From Alkalibacter rhizosphaerae (GTDB lineage Bacteria > Bacillota > Clostridia > Eubacteriales > Alkalibacteraceae), in NCBI RefSeq assembly GCF_017352215.1, contig NZ_CP071444.1, positions 2,108,001 to 2,172,000 on the forward strand: a DNA stretch of 64,000 bases, given 5' to 3'. This document shows positions 15,623 to 22,932 of the stretch, one piece after another. The notes under the pieces are model-generated. The model was given only the letters and a program-made list of their open reading frames with translations, ran no database searches and was not told where the DNA came from. Both the position numbers and the translations under genes were made by a program. Within the stretch, counting starts at the first letter, position 1. Each line of letters opens with the position of its first letter.

Positions 15623-15973
15623 GGGGGCGCAATGGCTTCGACGGGGGTTTTGAAGCAAGAGAAGCGAGTCGATGTGTCCAATCATCGTTAAAAGTGGCAA
15701 CCTAAATATAAACGCTAAAAACAATAATTACGCCTTAGCTGCGTAAAGCAGCTTTCGTCCGACCCAGAAGACCTGCGATCAGGGACTCGGGCGTCAACCT
15801 AGCAGGGAACCGTTTCACAGGATGTCTCGACTGTAAAACGAACAATTGAGGCTGGTCCAATTGGAATTCTGTCACTGGAAGTCCAAGCGGCGAGATTAAA
15901 TAAGTGACTGCACTCGGAGAAACTCTTGTGAATGGACTTTCGGACGCGGGTTCGATTCCCGCCGCCTCCACCA
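15623..15973 (+). ncRNA. ssrA: Transfer-messenger RNA (tmRNA)
   Basis: A 351-nt one-piece tmRNA. The 5' end GGGGGCG pairs with the 3' CGCCTCC before the encoded ACCA. The start AATGGCTTCGACGGGGGTT is the typical tmRNA signature, and the 3' end holds the T-arm GGGTTCGATTCCC. The internal reading frame starts at GCT 15714 and encodes the tag AKNNNYALAA, then TAA at 15744. The tag keeps the YALAA degradation signal, while its N-terminal part is asparagine-rich rather than the common ANDE form. Confidence 0.97.
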
Positions 15974-16239: not shown

Positions 16240-16293
16240 TTGACACTATTGTCTAATAACGATAGACTGTAATTGTCTAGAGGAAATAGACAA
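16240..16293 (+). promoter_or_regulatory. blaI-type promoter with two dyad operators
   Basis: TTGACA (16240-16245) and TAGACT (16263-16268) are 17 bases apart. Two copies of the same dyad occur: GTCTA-N7-TAGAC at 16251-16267, which covers the -10 region, and TTGTCTA-N7-TAGACAA at 16273-16293, just ahead of the ribosome site. Their centres are 24 bases apart. Paired dyads overlapping the promoter are typical of BlaI/MecI autoregulation. The exact core differs from the staphylococcal TACA/TGTA element. Confidence 0.75.
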
Positions 16294-16305
16294 GGAGGAA
16301 AAGTA

Positions 16306-16668
16306 ATGGAAAAATATAAACTAGGAGAAATGGAACAGAGATTTGCAGATTTGATTTGGGACCAAGCACCGATAAAGACGCGTGATCTCATTGCAAAGTG
16401 TTCCGAAGAATTCAATTGGAAAAGGACAACTACTTATACAATGCTCAAGCGCCTGTGCGATCGGGGAATTTTCATCAATGAAAACGGTTTTGTAACCGTG
16501 CTTATTCCGAAAAATGATTTCTTGACTGGCAAAGGCGAAGAATTCCTGGAAGAATCCTTCGGCGGCTCCCTACCAAAGTTTGTTGCTGCATTCGCAAAAC
16601 GTAAAAAGCTAAGCAAACGCGAAATAGAAGAAATACAGCAGCTCATTAACGATTACAAGAAGGAGTGA
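16306..16668 (+). CDS. BlaI/MecI-family transcriptional repressor
   Basis: A 120-residue winged-helix repressor. The N-terminal segment MEQRFADLIWDQAPIKTRDL and the recognition region FNWKRTTTYTMLKRLCDRGI match the BlaI/MecI/CopY pattern (x-W-x-R-T-T-V-x-T-x-L-x-R-L). The C-terminal half is the dimerisation region that BlaR1-type proteases trigger for cleavage. ATG 16306 follows AAGGAGG at about 7 bases. The stop codon lies 5 bases before the likely start of the M56 protease gene, so the two are translationally coupled. Confidence 0.9.
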   Translation: MEKYKLGEMEQRFADLIWDQAPIKTRDLIAKCSEEFNWKRTTTYTMLKRLCDRGIFINENGFVTVLIPKNDFLTGKGEEFLEESFGGSLPKFVAAFAKRKKLSKREIEEIQQLINDYKKE

Positions 16669-16673
16669 TCAAC

Positions 16674-18314
16674 GTGTTGGAACAGATGTTTCTCCAAGTG
16701 CTAAACATGACTTTTGTGGGGAGTTTTGTCATTCTGTTTGTTTTAGTTGCAAGACTTCTCCTTAAAAAAGCACCTAAAAAATATTCCTATTTGCTGTGGA
16801 TTGTTGTTTTGTTCCGGCTGATCGTCCCCTTTTCCGTGAAAAGTGTGCTGAGCTTGATTCCTGTGAATCCCACACCAATTGTTCGGGAAACCATCTACTC
16901 TGCAACACCCCAAATAACTACTGGTATCACTAACGTAGATCAATCCATTAATGCAATGTTACCAGCAATTCGTGGCAACGGAGCAGGAAACCCTATGGTG
17001 GACTGGATATTTTTTGCCGCCCTTCTTTGGCTTATGGGAGTTGCTTTTTTCATGATTTCCGGAGCTGTATCTCTAAGTAAAACAAAGAACTCAGTAAAAA
17101 ATGCGATTCACTGGAAAGACAATGTGTACCGTTCCAAAGAGGTGAAAATACCATTTGTAATGGGACTGGTTAAGCCAAGAATTTATATGCCGGACTATTT
17201 GAATCAAAGTGAAGAAGAATACATATTGCTTCATGAGCAAACCCACATCAAAAGGTTGGATCACGGTATTAGAATTTTAAGCTATCTAGTTTTGTCTCTG
17301 CATTGGTTCAATCCATTGGTATGGATCGCGTTTTGGCGAAGTGGGGACGATATGGAAATGTCTTGCGACGAGTCCGTCATCAATACATTAGGATACAGCT
17401 TAAAGAAAGACTATTCCCAATCCCTATTGAATTTTGCCACGGGGAAAAGGACTTTTGGTATATCTCCACTTGCCTTTGGAGAAGGAAATACAAAAGGGCG
17501 TATTAAAAACATATTGCGTTATAAAAAACCTAGGTTCTACATCATGCTGGCAATAGTAGTCATAGTGATTCCGCTAGCCATTGGGTTATTGCTGAATCCA
17601 GAAAACGAAACAGGCGCTCCATATATTGATCAAATCAATGAATGGAGCGAAAAAAACTTGGAACAAGCAGATAACTATACCATGCTTATCAATACAATCA
17701 ATATTTGGCGTGGTGAAGACGGCGTTGAATTAACGCATAGTGAAAGTGAATATGAAAGAGTAGTATTCTTTGACCCGTACAAAACAAAACAAACCACACT
17801 TTCAAAAACAGAATATACGACACAGGCATACTACGAATTGCATCAAAATGAAGAAATCGCACAATATTCATTCTTTTTGCAAGATGAGGTTTATGTTATT
17901 TCAAGGGTTACTAAAGAAGATTTGGGAGAATCTGCGGATGCCTTTGATAATTTGTATATTGGCGAAGGAGAACACAGCCCAGGACTGCTGTCCGGTATGG
18001 TTGATTATGAAGTAGTGGAAGAAACAGAGGAACAGTACGTGCTGAAAGCGACGATTGAACAGGGAGATCTTTATGGTGAAGTTGGAGCGAGCTTCATTTT
18101 AACCAACACACGAACAATCTACTATGACAAAACAAGCAATCAGGTAATGAAGGTGGAGAATCATGTAATACAGGATGCAGAGGTGCTGAATCCAGGCATG
18201 ACAGTCGATGGACAATCTGTTAAGGAAATGGATTTCACCACCACGATACAATATGTCAATATCAATACATCTGAGGACTTTGATTTGCCAGAGGGTGAGG
18301 AGCTTGTCAACTAA
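16674..18314 (+). CDS. BlaR1-like M56 sensor metalloprotease with a non-penicillin-binding sensor domain
   Basis: A 546-residue membrane protein. Helices near the N-terminus are followed by a zinc-protease core with HEQTH at residues 187-191, a final transmembrane helix (MLAIVVIVIPLAIGLLL) and an external domain from about residue 314 to the end. In BlaR1 the external domain is a penicillin-binding serine enzyme; here there is no SxxK/KTG pattern. Instead the domain is homologous along its length to the lipoprotein at 18812-19606. By analogy it should sense an envelope signal and inactivate the adjacent repressor. GTG 16674 was chosen over GTG 16665 for its ribosome-site spacing (AAGGAG, 8 bases). 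Confidence 0.85.
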   Translation: MLEQMFLQVLNMTFVGSFVILFVLVARLLLKKAPKKYSYLLWIVVLFRLIVPFSVKSVLSLIPVNPTPIVRETIYSATPQITTGITNVDQSINAMLPAIRGNGAGNPMVDWIFFAALLWLMGVAFFMISGAVSLSKTKNSVKNAIHWKDNVYRSKEVKIPFVMGLVKPRIYMPDYLNQSEEEYILLHEQTHIKRLDHGIRILSYLVLSLHWFNPLVWIAFWRSGDDMEMSCDESVINTLGYSLKKDYSQSLLNFATGKRTFGISPLAFGEGNTKGRIKNILRYKKPRFYIMLAIVVIVIPLAIGLLLNPENETGAPYIDQINEWSEKNLEQADNYTMLINTINIWRGEDGVELTHSESEYERVVFFDPYKTKQTTLSKTEYTTQAYYELHQNEEIAQYSFFLQDEVYVISRVTKEDLGESADAFDNLYIGEGEHSPGLLSGMVDYEVVEETEEQYVLKATIEQGDLYGEVGASFILTNTRTIYYDKTSNQVMKVENHVIQDAEVLNPGMTVDGQSVKEMDFTTTIQYVNINTSEDFDLPEGEELVN

Positions 18315-18351
18315 CTTCTATTGTGTAATTGGTGGATATTACGACATGATT

Positions 18352-18374
18352 AAGCTGGGGAACCCAGCTTTTTT
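18352..18374 (+). terminator. Terminator after the M56 protease gene
   Basis: AAGCTGGG-GAA-CCCAGCTT is a perfect 8-bp stem with a 3-base loop, followed by TTTT. It ends the repressor-protease transcript. Confidence 0.88.
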
Positions 18375-18450
18375 GTTGCTTTAAATTTTCAGTAATGCTA
18401 GACTAATAACAGTAATTTAAAGTGTGAGTTATTTATAGGAGTGACAAAAA

Positions 18451-18666
18451 ATGAAAAAGGAAATTGTTATATTCATAGTTGCTTATATTGTTGCAACCAT
18501 CATTCGGGGATTGATTTTTCTCTATACTGGGTTTTCTTTTAATATTTTTCAAGACAGATTTGGTTTAATACCCTTTTTAGGGGACGTTATGATCTGGGCA
18601 CTATCATATATAGGAGTAAGATTGGTTATTATTAACTTGGCTGTTAAGAGAATTAAATCTTCCTAA
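18451..18666 (+). CDS. Small two-helix membrane protein, unknown
   Basis: A 71-residue protein with two predicted membrane segments (residues about 4-25 and 43-64) joined by a loop, and a basic C-terminus (KRIKSS). TAGGAG precedes the ATG at 6-8 bases, and codon use looks like that of its neighbours, so I regard it as real. I do not recognise the family. It sits between the M56 protease and the sensor-like lipoprotein, in the same orientation. Confidence 0.6.
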   Translation: MKKEIVIFIVAYIVATIIRGLIFLYTGFSFNIFQDRFGLIPFLGDVMIWALSYIGVRLVIINLAVKRIKSS

Positions 18667-18811
18667 TAGGTGGATACAGCGTACTAAAGCTGGGAGCTCG
18701 CCCTGATTTTTCGTATTTTTTCGGTACTGAGTTCAACTACGATATGACCAGAGTTAAGAGAAACAACTTCTATATTGCTAATATAATTTGTGTAAGGTTG
18801 GAGGTAAACAC

Positions 18812-19606
18812 ATGAAATTCAAAAAAGAACACATGATTTTAGTGCTTTTATTGATGCTATCTTTAATCGTTGTTGGGTGTGCTGGACAAGCATCTAGTTC
18901 TGATGAAGGTCCATACATTGCCGGTATTAAAAAGTGGAGCTATAATAACTTGGAAAACGTAAATAACTACACGGTTATTGCTGATGTCACTAATTTATAC
19001 CTTGATGAAGATGGAAATGAAATTCGTAGAAACGAGAGCCGTGGTGAAAGAATAATATTTTACGATCCATATAGAACAAAGGTAACCACTTTATCAGAGA
19101 CGGAATATCCAACGGCACCTAGTTATGCGTTGCATCAAAATGGAACCATCACGAATTATTTTTATTTTCTTCAAGAGGAAAAATATTTAGTAAGCGAAAT
19201 AACAGAAGAAACATATCCGGAGCCAGCACTTTTTGATAGTCTATATATTGGAAATGGTGAACGTACCCAAGGGATACTATTGGGTATGGTTGATTATGAA
19301 ATTTTAGAAGACACTGATGAACAAGTAGTTATCAAAGCGACAATAAACCCGGAAGAAGTACATGGCGCGGCAATTGAGTATATGTATATTAAATCACTAA
19401 CGCAAACTGTTTATTATAATAAGGACACCCAACAGGTTATTAAGGTCGAAGATCATCAACTTGTTAATACACAAGAACTTTCACCGAACATGGTGATAGA
19501 CGGTAAATCAGTTTATGAGCAGGATCTTACTATAGTATCTGAATATAAAAATATTAATTCATCACCAGACTTTGAATTGCCAAAAGATGACGAGATTATC
19601 AGTTGA
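18812..19606 (+). CDS. Lipoprotein homologous to the external sensor domain of the neighbouring M56 protease
   Basis: A 264-residue lipoprotein. The signal peptide ends in LIVVGC, so the mature protein is anchored through a cysteine at about residue 21. From PYIAGIKKWS to the end it aligns with the external domain of the M56 protease (PYIDQINEWS onwards), sharing blocks such as GMVDYE, LYIG-GE, DPY-TK-TTLS-TEY, and a Y-NIN-S-DF-LP end. I estimate about 40-45% identity by eye. TTGGAGGT lies 7-8 bases before ATG 18812. It may compete for, bind or present the sensor's ligand. No function is known to me. Confidence 0.85.
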   Translation: MKFKKEHMILVLLLMLSLIVVGCAGQASSSDEGPYIAGIKKWSYNNLENVNNYTVIADVTNLYLDEDGNEIRRNESRGERIIFYDPYRTKVTTLSETEYPTAPSYALHQNGTITNYFYFLQEEKYLVSEITEETYPEPALFDSLYIGNGERTQGILLGMVDYEILEDTDEQVVIKATINPEEVHGAAIEYMYIKSLTQTVYYNKDTQQVIKVEDHQLVNTQELSPNMVIDGKSVYEQDLTIVSEYKNINSSPDFELPKDDEIIS

Positions 19607-19697
19607 CTTCCATTGAAACATTCTGCGCAGTAGATGGATAATATGTCGTGATAGGTGGATATTGAGAAGTAACTTAAGATTATGAGGTGTATTTTAT

Positions 19698-19868
19698 ATG
19701 GAAATAGCGGTTATAAAGGGAAGTGTGAATTATATAGATGATTACGAGAATGCATTAGTAAATTCGGAACTGGGGAAAAGAGATTTTTCAGAAGAGGGAA
19801 AAGCTCGAAAAGCACTAGAAGAAGGAATTTGTAGATTTGTTTTGTGGATGTATGCACAATTTAGCTGA
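19698..19868 (+). CDS. Small 56-residue protein, unknown
   Basis: An open frame of 56 codons starting MEIAVIKGSVNYID. GAGGTG sits 8 bases before the ATG. The stop at 19866 is 15 bases before the next gene's ATG, whose ribosome site immediately follows, so the two could be cotranscribed. The product is soluble and charged in the middle (GKRDFSEEGKARKALEEG) with an aromatic C-terminus. I do not recognise it. The ribosome site and spacing are the main support. Confidence 0.5.
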   Translation: MEIAVIKGSVNYIDDYENALVNSELGKRDFSEEGKARKALEEGICRFVLWMYAQFS

Positions 19869-19883
19869 GACTAGGAGGTTTAT

Positions 19884-21938
19884 ATGGAAAAGATATTTGC
19901 CAAAAGCATAAAACTGGTTTCAGTACTGATCATTGTATTAATCTTATTTATTCAATCATCAGTTTTTGCTATTTCGGTACCGGGTTCCATGACGGTATCG
20001 GCAAAATCCACGTATGCAGCAGGAGAAAGCATCGTGTTCAACTGGACGGCCTCCAGCGGCGCGACCAAATACGGATTGTCCGTGTGGAAGGAACCATACG
20101 GCAACGACCAGTACTTGGTATTTGACAACTATGTAACCGGAACCTCCAAGAACATCGGATCCTTGCCGGCAGGGAAATACTGTGTGCAGATGAAGCCATA
20201 CAATAGTGCCGGTGGCGGACCAAACAGCAATGTGGTCTATTTCACGGTGCAATCATCACAGCCCACTGTATCGGTACCGGGTTCCATGACGGTAACGGCA
20301 AAATCCACGTATGCAGCAGGAGAAAGCATCGTGTTCAACTGGACGGCATCCAGCGGTGCAGCCAAATACGGATTGTCCGTATGGAAGGAACCATACGGAA
20401 ACGACCAGTACTTGGTGTTTGACAACTATGTAACCGGAACCTCCAAGAACATCGGATCCTTGCCGGCAGGGAAATACTGTGTGCAGATGAAGCCATACAA
20501 TAGTGCCGGTGGCGGACCAAACAGCAATGTGGTCTATTTCACGGTGCAATCATCACAACCCACAGTAACGGTACCGGGTTCCATGACGGTATCGGCAAAA
20601 TCCACGTATGCAGCAGGAGAAAGCGTCGTGTTCAACTGGACGGCCTCCAGCGGCGCGACCAAATACGGATTGTCCGTATGGAAGGAACCATACGGAAACG
20701 ACCAGTACTTGGTGTTTGACAACTATGTAACCGGAACCTCCAAGAACATCGGATCCTTGCCGGCAGGGAAATACTGTGTGCAGATGAAGCCATACAATAG
20801 CGCCGGTGGCGGGCCAAACAGCAATGTGGTTTACTTCACGGTGCAATCATCACAACCCACAGTAACGGTACCGGGCTCCATGACGGTATCGGCAAAATCC
20901 ACGTATGCAGCAGGAGAAAGCGTCGTGTTCAATTGGACGGCATCCAGCGGTGCAGCCAAATACGGATTGTCCGTATGGAAGGAACCATACGGAAACGACC
21001 AGTACTTGGTGTTTGACAACTATGTAACCGGAACCTCCAAGAACATCGGATCCTTGCCGGCAGGGAGATACTGTGTGCAGATGAAGCCATACAATAGTGC
21101 CGGTGGTGGGCCAAACAGCAATGTGGTCTATTTCACGGTGTATGAAAAAGCGACGATGAAAAATCCGCTTGTGCAGGAAGAAGAACCGATTGGTAAATAT
21201 ATACCTCCACCTGTAAAAACTACTAATGATTCAAAAGAAACGTCTGAATCGGTCAATAATGATAGTGATGAAACCATTTCAGATGCGGCTAAAGAATCAA
21301 AAAATATCTTTGATTTTGTGTCTGAAAAGATTTCAGTCAGTGTTTCTAAAGTGATTTCGTGGATCAAAGGATTCTTTAATAGCAATGATGATAAGGAATC
21401 TACGCCGACTCAAACACCGAAACCATCACTTATACCAGAAAAGGAACAAATTAATTCGGATGTTCCTGAACAAAATGTTGAACCGGATCTTATAAATGAA
21501 AGGATAGCTGAGGTTGCGGAGACTTATGCTAATGGAACTTGGGGTGGTCAGTGTAAAGCTTTTGTGAATAGTGTCGTCTCAAAGGCAAGTGATGGAAAGA
21601 TCAGCGTTGGTAATGGTTATCAAAATGCATTTGCGAGAGCAGGAGGTATAGAGATAAACCCTCAAGATGCTGTACGAGGAGACATTATTCAGGTTACTCC
21701 TGCAGGAAGTGATGGCAGCTCTGTTTATGATATGTATGACAAAAACGATCCATCGAAACAATTACATACCGCAATAATACTTTCTAATAGTGGGGGCGGG
21801 AATTTTTGGGTCATCGATTCCAATACTTTTTATTCAAAACTCAATCCGGTAATGACACCAGAACTTGTCTTTCGGCATTCGTATAATCCATACTCCAGCG
21901 CGGCTGGGAGTATCATTAAAATATGGAGGCTAAATTAG
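19884..21938 (+). CDS. Secreted protein with four ~99-residue repeats and a C-terminal CHAP/NlpC-like domain
   Basis: A 684-residue exported protein. A signal peptide (to about residue 29, ending SSVFA) is followed by four nearly identical beta-rich repeats of 99 residues beginning PGSMTV and ending YFTVQSSQPTV, of fibronectin-III-like character. A charged, Ser/Pro-rich linker (about residues 425-545) leads to a C-terminal domain with GGQCKAFV (Cys 557) and LHTAII (His 628), the Cys-His arrangement of CHAP or NlpC/P60 peptidoglycan hydrolases. AGGAGG precedes the ATG. It probably binds and trims the cell wall, downstream of the BlaR1-like sensing genes. Confidence 0.8.
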   Translation: MEKIFAKSIKLVSVLIIVLILFIQSSVFAISVPGSMTVSAKSTYAAGESIVFNWTASSGATKYGLSVWKEPYGNDQYLVFDNYVTGTSKNIGSLPAGKYCVQMKPYNSAGGGPNSNVVYFTVQSSQPTVSVPGSMTVTAKSTYAAGESIVFNWTASSGAAKYGLSVWKEPYGNDQYLVFDNYVTGTSKNIGSLPAGKYCVQMKPYNSAGGGPNSNVVYFTVQSSQPTVTVPGSMTVSAKSTYAAGESVVFNWTASSGATKYGLSVWKEPYGNDQYLVFDNYVTGTSKNIGSLPAGKYCVQMKPYNSAGGGPNSNVVYFTVQSSQPTVTVPGSMTVSAKSTYAAGESVVFNWTASSGAAKYGLSVWKEPYGNDQYLVFDNYVTGTSKNIGSLPAGRYCVQMKPYNSAGGGPNSNVVYFTVYEKATMKNPLVQEEEPIGKYIPPPVKTTNDSKETSESVNNDSDETISDAAKESKNIFDFVSEKISVSVSKVISWIKGFFNSNDDKESTPTQTPKPSLIPEKEQINSDVPEQNVEPDLINERIAEVAETYANGTWGGQCKAFVNSVVSKASDGKISVGNGYQNAFARAGGIEINPQDAVRGDIIQVTPAGSDGSSVYDMYDKNDPSKQLHTAIILSNSGGGNFWVIDSNTFYSKLNPVMTPELVFRHSYNPYSSAAGSIIKIWRLN
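19974..21140 (+). repeat. Four tandem 297-bp repeats inside the secreted protein gene
   Basis: Units begin at 19974, 20271, 20568 and 20865, each at TCGGTACCGG or ACGGTACCGG. The last is cut short near 21140. DNA identity between units is very high, with scattered, mostly third-position differences (for example GCGACC against GCAGCC). This pattern fits recent duplication or ongoing gene conversion, so copy number may vary between strains. Confidence 0.95.
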
Positions 21939-22499: not shown

Positions 22500-22723
22500 T
22501 TATTTACCTTCCAAAAGATCTTTTGCCCTTAGATAATTTTCTTCCGTAATTTCCCCGCGCGCAAAGCGTCTGTCTAATAATTCTTTCGCATTGTTCTCCG
22601 AAGGATTCAATTTTCTTTTATTCCCCAAATTAGCATTAAGACGGCGATAATAATTACTGTCCCAATACCAAACAATATCCACGGCAAATAGTACCACTCT
22701 CGTTGATCCCGAAACATTGGCAT
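22500..22723 (-). pseudogene. SHOCT-domain membrane protein, frameshifted
   Basis: Read on the minus strand, the first frame gives MPMFRDQREWYYLPW, a transmembrane segment (ILFGIGTVIIIAVLMLIW) and GIKEN, then a stop. The next frame continues with NPSENNAKELL and the SHOCT motif DRRFARGEITEENYLRAKDLLEG. Adding one base in the A-rich run near 22615 joins the two into a normal short SHOCT protein (helix plus C-terminal SHOCT). This is a single-base loss in the strain or a sequencing error in a homopolymer. Confidence 0.7.
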
Positions 22724-22932
22724 ACGACCAAAATTCACGGAACCTTCACTATTTTCAGATTTTCAACGATTCATGCGTCCTTAACCAAGCTCTTCAAATC
22801 TAAAGAATATTTCCAACCAAGTTTCTTTTGTGATTTTGTTTACCTATTTGCACACTGTGGTAGAAGTAAAACGAAAACTAAGTTATTGCTGTGGCATACA
22901 AGTTTTACCGAGACTTAAGGAGGATCATTTGT

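Follow-up and report, generated by a model that had tools for sequence, protein, structure and literature searches.

A probable BlaI/BlaR1-type switch with an unclassified sensor domain and a neighbouring lipoprotein paralogue in Alkalibacter rhizosphaerae

Introduction

For pairs of a BlaI-family repressor and an M56 membrane metalloprotease, the signal is known mainly in the case of beta-lactam sensors. In Staphylococcus aureus, BlaR1 cleaves itself at Ser283-Phe284 and BlaI is cut at Asn101-Phe102 (PMC9834060, available text). BlaI_0696 from Clostridium thermocellum binds inverted GTCTAT repeats that lie five bases apart and occur in ordered pairs, as determined by DNA affinity purification sequencing (DAP-seq) with support from electrophoretic mobility shift assays (EMSA), and the BlaI regulons of this bacterium are described as very small and self-regulating, comprising one and three operons (PMC8457756, available text). 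In another type of regulated proteolysis, the LolA-like domain of MucB/RseB binds lipid and controls the proteolysis of MucA/RseA (PMC7400510, available text). Here we analyze 64,000 nucleotides of Alkalibacter rhizosphaerae DNA (contig NZ_CP071444.1, positions 2,108,001 to 2,172,000; this whole stretch is called the window), in which a blaI-M56 gene pair is followed by a lipoprotein gene whose product is paralogous to the extracellular C-terminal domain (ectodomain) of the M56 protein. The explanation that we favor, and that we hold to be moderately probable, is that the two genes form a BlaI/BlaR1-type switch working by regulated proteolysis, with a paralogue of its sensor domain as a neighbouring lipoprotein, the rest of the locus being a mosaic.

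Results

A preliminary description of the locus had listed six open reading frames (ORFs) in one orientation within 5.7 kb, and all six are present at their places and on a single strand (Table 1). The identities that it gave to the first two, a repressor and an M56 protease, were confirmed by Pfam scores well over the cut-offs. The blaI and M56 ORFs overlap by 4 bases, possess their own operators and are followed by a strong terminator with an 8-pair stem (-16.2 kcal/mol), equally stable structures being obtained in 1 of 200 shuffles, which supports the earlier view that the pair is a sensor operon ending at this terminator. The M56 protein contains HEQTH at residue 190, Glu231, Asp235 and an autocleavage-type Phe271, and its hydrophobic stretches (residues 15-33, 46-64, 115-133, and 292-310) are predicted to be four membrane helices. 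When 16 M56 loci were examined, one of them (L041) did not reach the catalytic region, and among the 15 aligning loci, the window's own copy included, HExxH and the downstream Glu/Asp were kept in all 15 and the autocleavage-loop Phe in 14. The solved structure of S. aureus BlaR1 (8exs) aligns to M56 residues 14-303, stopping where the ectodomain begins, and the alignment with S. aureus BlaI (1sd4) places the scissile Asn101-Phe102 on Ala95-Phe96 of the window repressor, so that the aligned cleavage positions are Ala-Phe in both window proteins. Conservation at both the catalytic and the scissile sites makes it probable that proteolysis is relayed in the known BlaI/BlaR1 manner. No Pfam family scored over its cut-off in the C-terminal domain, and the family NF000326, with a cut-off of 400, reached only 98.9 bits; as the beta-lactam sensor domain is absent, the M56 protein was not filed as BlaR1.

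The blaI-M56 promoter is covered by two perfect GTCTA-N7-TAGAC dyads at a spacing of 24 bp. Their four-half-site tandem pattern has no second copy in the window, and none of 100 shuffles contained it; the inverted-repeat operator of this repressor family is thus predicted to lie in the repressor gene's own promoter. Among the 16 M56 loci (window included), a BlaI homologue was recovered at 15, and tandem GTCTA-type dyads with no more than one mismatch per dyad are present at 7, in one case (L033) with a spacing of 27 bp and not 24. As the window dyads match the published BlaI_0696 motif and its two-pair arrangement, the operator part is already known, and the pair is an ordinary self-regulating switch of the BlaI/BlaR1 type with a known operator architecture and an unclassified ectodomain. 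From these comparisons we infer how the switch would work: the repressor would bind the four half-sites (two dyads) at its own promoter and repress blaI-M56, an outside ligand or an envelope disturbance would be felt by the M56 C-terminal domain, and the zinc protease, facing the cytoplasm, would on activation cut the repressor before Phe96, whereupon the promoter would open. At most of the other loci (L034-L040 and L043), tandem dyads of TTCTAA-, GTTTA- or ATCTA-like sequence seem by eye to lie upstream of the blaI homologues, the products of which differ from the window BlaI in the sequence of the recognition region. The sequences at these loci suggest an operator code that changes along with the repressor.

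A second blaI-M56 pair was found in the same genome near 1.06 Mb (L032:8734-10910). Its repressor is 69% identical to the window repressor, a dyad with a single mismatch lies upstream of the exact one, again offset by 24 bp, and its M56 protein has a different, unrelated ectodomain. Exact dyads occur four times in the genome, two of them in the window, one at the second blaI and one inside an unrelated ORF. The latter, at position 1137164, was rejected as a further target because it sits within an antitoxin-like ORF (a name read from its sequence), so that the second pair is the sole other operator-bearing target found by the exact-dyad search. Given the similar repressors, the shared operator pattern and no other target found, the two switches probably cross-talk, as judged from their sequences.

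The lipoprotein had been called a homologue of the sensor domain, and this proved correct: 110 of 233 residues (47%) are identical to the M56 C-terminus (E 2e-71). In the lipoprotein, a single hydrophobic stretch at residues 7-25 is followed in the translation by VVGC, which we take to be a lipobox. Comparison of ectodomain and lipoprotein by the NG86 method gave a non-synonymous divergence (dN) of 0.42 and a saturated synonymous divergence (dS) of 3.67, and the identities at codon positions 1, 2, and 3 were 63, 72, and 42%, respectively, which argues for long constraint at the protein level. Judged by these substitution patterns, the two are an old duplication maintained by purifying selection. 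Homologous DNA past the stop codons of the M56 and lipoprotein genes was considered as a sign of recent duplication, but 28 of 1000 shuffles scored equally and synonymous sites are saturated, and a recent event is not claimed.

Relatives of this domain pair are scarce. The M56 ectodomain had no match in Pfam or NCBIfam, and a profile of ectodomain plus lipoprotein matched a single genome, its own, among 67 from the order. In the class and the phylum, 6 of 391 and 2 of 398 genomes, apart from its own, gave matches at E 9e-4 to 0.01 over fewer than 80 of 265 positions, and these partial stretches were treated as chance matches; the three genome samples overlap. Pattern searches for relatives gave 248 and 72 matches in genome_contigs and 122 in viral contigs, none of which was confirmed, and none was found in the plasmid and phage sets. 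Neighbouring paralogues were looked for at the 16 M56 loci (4.5-18 kb each), one of which is the window itself (L042) and three of which (L031, L040, and L041) were dropped as they have no usable ectodomain. None of the 12 other loci contained a neighbouring paralogue of its ectodomain at E 0.001 or better, the best match being 0.022 over 28 residues, and therefore M56 sensors do not in general come with such a neighbour. A search of the open-access literature found no paper describing a lipoprotein paralogue of an M56 ectodomain. What appears unusual in this locus, on the evidence of the sets searched, is a lipoprotein twin of an unclassified M56 ectodomain that has no relatives there. At one of the other loci (L033:3112-6741), the M56 protein has 1209 residues and a C-terminal part of 883 residues, far exceeding the others.

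AlphaFold2 models were obtained from two sequences with low confidence, the predicted local distance difference test (pLDDT) being 45.6 and 47.4. With one model, Foldseek listed LolA first (E 4.3e-4; mean pLDDT below 50), and with the other it found nothing at 0.001, LolA appearing at E 0.14 or weaker (mean pLDDT likewise below 50). VIA-align gave Z scores of 5.5-6.4 for LolA, LppX, RseB, and MucB and higher ones, 7.1-7.8, for porins, all in the range that the tool calls uninformative. Kinship with DUF6612 was not supported: a comparison of profiles with those of two DUF6612 proteins yielded a probability of 0.6%, and a reversed-sequence control was also low. The low-confidence models thus suggest a LolA-like lipid-binding fold as a lead only. 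It is likely that the locus combines a lineage-specific ectodomain on a regulated-proteolysis sensor with a stand-alone lipoprotein binding the same ligand, and we infer for the lipoprotein a role as membrane-anchored sink or co-sensor for the ligand of the M56 ectodomain, which it probably binds. The more detailed proposal, that both bind one envelope ligand, perhaps a lipid or a lipid-linked wall precursor held in a LolA-like pocket, and that the free lipoprotein sets the threshold for destruction of the repressor by the protease, is speculative and in our view rather improbable.

The lipoprotein might instead be the output of the switch, in which case read-through of the terminator on strong derepression would produce the 71-residue protein with two predicted membrane helices (2TM) and the lipoprotein, the ligand would be captured and the signal shut off. 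The genes lie on the same strand, the 47% identity with retained selection would suit an effector that shares the ligand-binding fold of its sensor, as do the class-D-like sensor and beta-lactamase of bla systems, and no other output was found by the exact-dyad search of the genome. Several results weigh against our favored explanation at this point. On the + strand, neither the M56-2TM gap nor the 2TM-lipoprotein gap contains a promoter-like site with at least 9 of 12 consensus matches, so that read-through from blaI-M56 into these genes is possible; the search beyond the window used exact dyads while the second blaI has a one-mismatch dyad, and hence degenerate targets may have been missed; and a reversed-pattern control gave 6 matches in the genome against the 4 real dyads, which makes single dyads uninformative and leaves the weight on the tandem arrangement. 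A strong terminator, however, separates M56 from 2TM, guanine-cytosine (GC) content at third codon positions is 0.40 for M56 and 0.27-0.29 for the genes of the 2TM protein and the lipoprotein, and none of the 12 other M56 loci has a neighbouring ectodomain paralogue. We regard a role as output as unlikely. Regulation of the 2TM gene by BlaI is improbable. The idea that its upstream DNA holds a duplicated promoter was discarded, since 488 of 1000 shuffles score equally.

Less likely still is that the lipoprotein is a neutral by-product of duplication, functionally unlinked to the switch. Such a leftover would fit a variable, partly decayed neighbourhood and an occurrence in one genome alone, but the ORF is intact with its lipobox, and the low dN relative to dS and the higher conservation of second than of third codon positions argue for long constraint on the protein.

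Dyads of the GTCTA-N7-TAGAC type, which the preliminary description had suggested looking for ahead of the later genes, were not found there: the best tandem scores before the 2TM, lipoprotein and 56-residue ORFs were 10, 12, and 9 of 20, respectively, versus 20 at blaI, the highest background score elsewhere in the window was 14, and the scan of the window revealed no tandem operator besides that of blaI. Shared regulation of the later genes was rejected for this reason. The 2TM protein had no family match, nor any match in plasmids or viral contigs, whole genomes not having been searched. The 56-residue ORF, listed earlier as a gene, is not a gene of its own; it corresponds to the N-terminal 44-50 residues of ORFs of 155-164 residues, which were found in 9 of the 390 other genomes from the class and in 0 of 40 closer relatives. 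Its intact homologue is a GNAT acetyltransferase according to Pfam, and the window copy departs after about residue 45 and contains no complete acetyl-CoA-binding domain.

Of the description of the last gene as encoding a secreted repeat protein with a CHAP/NlpC-like domain, the repeats stood, four near-identical Ig/Fn3-like units of 99 residues (positions 19975-21140, period 297 at 96%), whereas the CHAP assignment fell below the Pfam cut-off (PF05257, 20.3 bits against 26); Cys557, His628, and Asp645 follow one another in a plausible order, and Asn647 is present as an alternative to Asp645. Matches to this 684-residue protein occurred in 2 of 120 genomes including its own, that is, the repeats are present in 1 of 119 others. 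The other repeat-bearing protein differs in its remaining sequence and has no CHAP part, and its genome (G042) has no M56 match. The search revealed no phage kinship of the CHAP-like part. On consensus matches, the promoter-like site ahead of the GNAT fragment could serve the CHAP-like gene independently, and the CHAP-like protein is probably a passenger. Beyond it, on the - strand, a gene for a small membrane protein whose C-terminus is SHOCT-like (22500-22738; 21.4 bits, below the cut-off) seems to be split across two frames into overlapping ORFs of 43 and 65 residues and is probably another decayed gene.

The locus lies behind ssrA. A block of rnr, smpB, and ssrA, the first being a 707-residue ORF that we take to be rnr, is common to the five nearest relatives compared, and the DNA past ssrA differs in each of them: G001 has recombinase genes directly behind ssrA, G005 a prophage-like stretch, and G002, G003, and G004 carry other genes (about 5 kb was compared for each of G001 and G002). 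The recombinase-like ORFs of G001, which belongs to the same genus, are large (528 and 499 residues; L064) and lie directly at the 3' end of ssrA, and for this reason ssrA is likely to be an integration site in the genus. In G002 the similarity runs on through the ssrA terminator, and an integrase-made junction is therefore not claimed here; the window yielded no repeated copy of the ssrA end. The GC content at third positions is 0.61-0.66 for rnr and smpB, 0.40-0.43 for blaI and M56, 0.25 for the GNAT fragment, and 0.47 for the CHAP-like gene, and these differences, together with the values given above, mark the stretch behind ssrA as a mosaic, probably of unrelated or decayed genes. Gene order, the conservation of which had been proposed as a check, is not conserved: of 61 genomes, 15 (the window's own among them) gave an M56 match and the two of the same genus gave none, and the ectodomain and the repeat/CHAP protein matched only the few noted above (1 of 67 and 2 of 120). 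The remaining neighbours of the switch and lipoprotein, a broken gene among them, are probably passengers without relation to the pair. Most of what the preliminary description had named as refuting its proposal was thus observed. That proposal, that all of the 5.7 kb forms a single envelope-stress module in which a single repressor governs sensor, co-sensor, and wall-active effector, draws on co-orientation, proximity, and the cysteine-protease-like domain of the last gene, but with no operators at the later genes, a terminator and a broken GNAT gene in between, unconserved order, mixed composition, and a promoter-like site before the CHAP-like gene, it is unsupported and appears very improbable.

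Table 1. Features of the locus in window coordinates.
Feature	Position	Strand	Basis
ssrA (tmRNA)	15623..15973	+	ARAGORN; synteny; ends block conserved in five relatives, DNA beyond variable
Sigma-70-like promoter of blaI-M56, TTGACA-17-TAGACT	16240..16268	+	10/12 consensus matches; operator 1 overlaps
Predicted operator dyad 1, GTCTA-N7-TAGAC	16251..16267		0 mismatches; homologous pairs show same pattern
Predicted operator dyad 2	16275..16291		0 mismatches; 24 bp from dyad 1
BlaI/MecI/CopY-family repressor, 120 residues	16306..16668	+	Penicillinase_R PF03965, 80 bits (cut-off 22.6); alignment to 1sd4
M56 membrane metalloprotease, 549 residues, 4 predicted transmembrane helices	16665..18314	+	PF05569, 189.8 bits (cut-off 31); BlaR1 8exs alignment
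M56 extracellular C-terminal domain, residues 318-549	17616..18311	+	Lipoprotein paralogue; no Pfam/NCBIfam match
Intrinsic terminator behind M56	18352..18370	+	8-pair stem; shuffle test
71-residue protein, two predicted membrane helices (2TM)	18451..18666	+	No family match
264-residue lipoprotein, putative lipobox VVGC	18812..19606	+	Stand-alone paralogue of M56 ectodomain
Promoter-like site, TTGAAA-18-GATAAT	19613..19642	+	10/12, consensus match only
Truncated GNAT acetyltransferase fragment (56-residue ORF)	19698..19868	+	Aligns to N-terminal 44-50 residues of longer ORFs
Secreted 684-residue protein: signal peptide, four repeats, linker, cysteine-protease-like C-terminal domain	19884..21938	+	

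Discussion

One genome thus contains two pairs whose repressors and operators are similar but whose ectodomains differ entirely, and one of these ectodomains is accompanied by a free lipoprotein copy. The two pairs open testable questions, namely what M56 sensors other than those for beta-lactams detect and whether sensors that share operators are cross-wired. The locus also illustrates that genes sharing one orientation in variable DNA behind ssrA should not be taken for a module.

Regarding operators, the window pair is of the GTCTA type whereas the bla and mec systems of S. aureus are of the TACA type, and the window M56 protein has no penicillin-binding sensor domain, its similarity to BlaR1 ending at residue 303. 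Shared with BlaI/BlaR1 and MecI/MecR1 are the repressor-protease pair, the gluzincin motifs of M56, the autocleavage-loop Phe, and the scissile Phe of BlaI (available text of PMC9834060; 8exs, 1sd4). The likeness to C. thermocellum BlaI_0696 lies in the GTCTAT-type inverted repeats, the two pairs per promoter, the self-regulated operon of blaI and a blaR1-like gene, and a regulon of very few operons (PMC8457756, in its available part); the window differs in its unclassified ectodomain and the paralogous lipoprotein downstream. With LolA, LppX, and DUF6612 lipoproteins the link is that LolA was the best Foldseek match of one low-confidence model, the window domain having no Pfam match. The relation to MucB/RseB is one of analogy only, in that a LolA-like lipid-binding domain controls the proteolysis of a regulator there (available text of PMC7400510) and that RseB and MucB are among the weak structural matches; the protease and regulator families differ, and the LolA-like fold of the window domain is putative. 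If true, the matched pair of sensor and lipoprotein would be a counterpart in principle to lipid sensing by RseB/MucB, built on BlaR1-type machinery.

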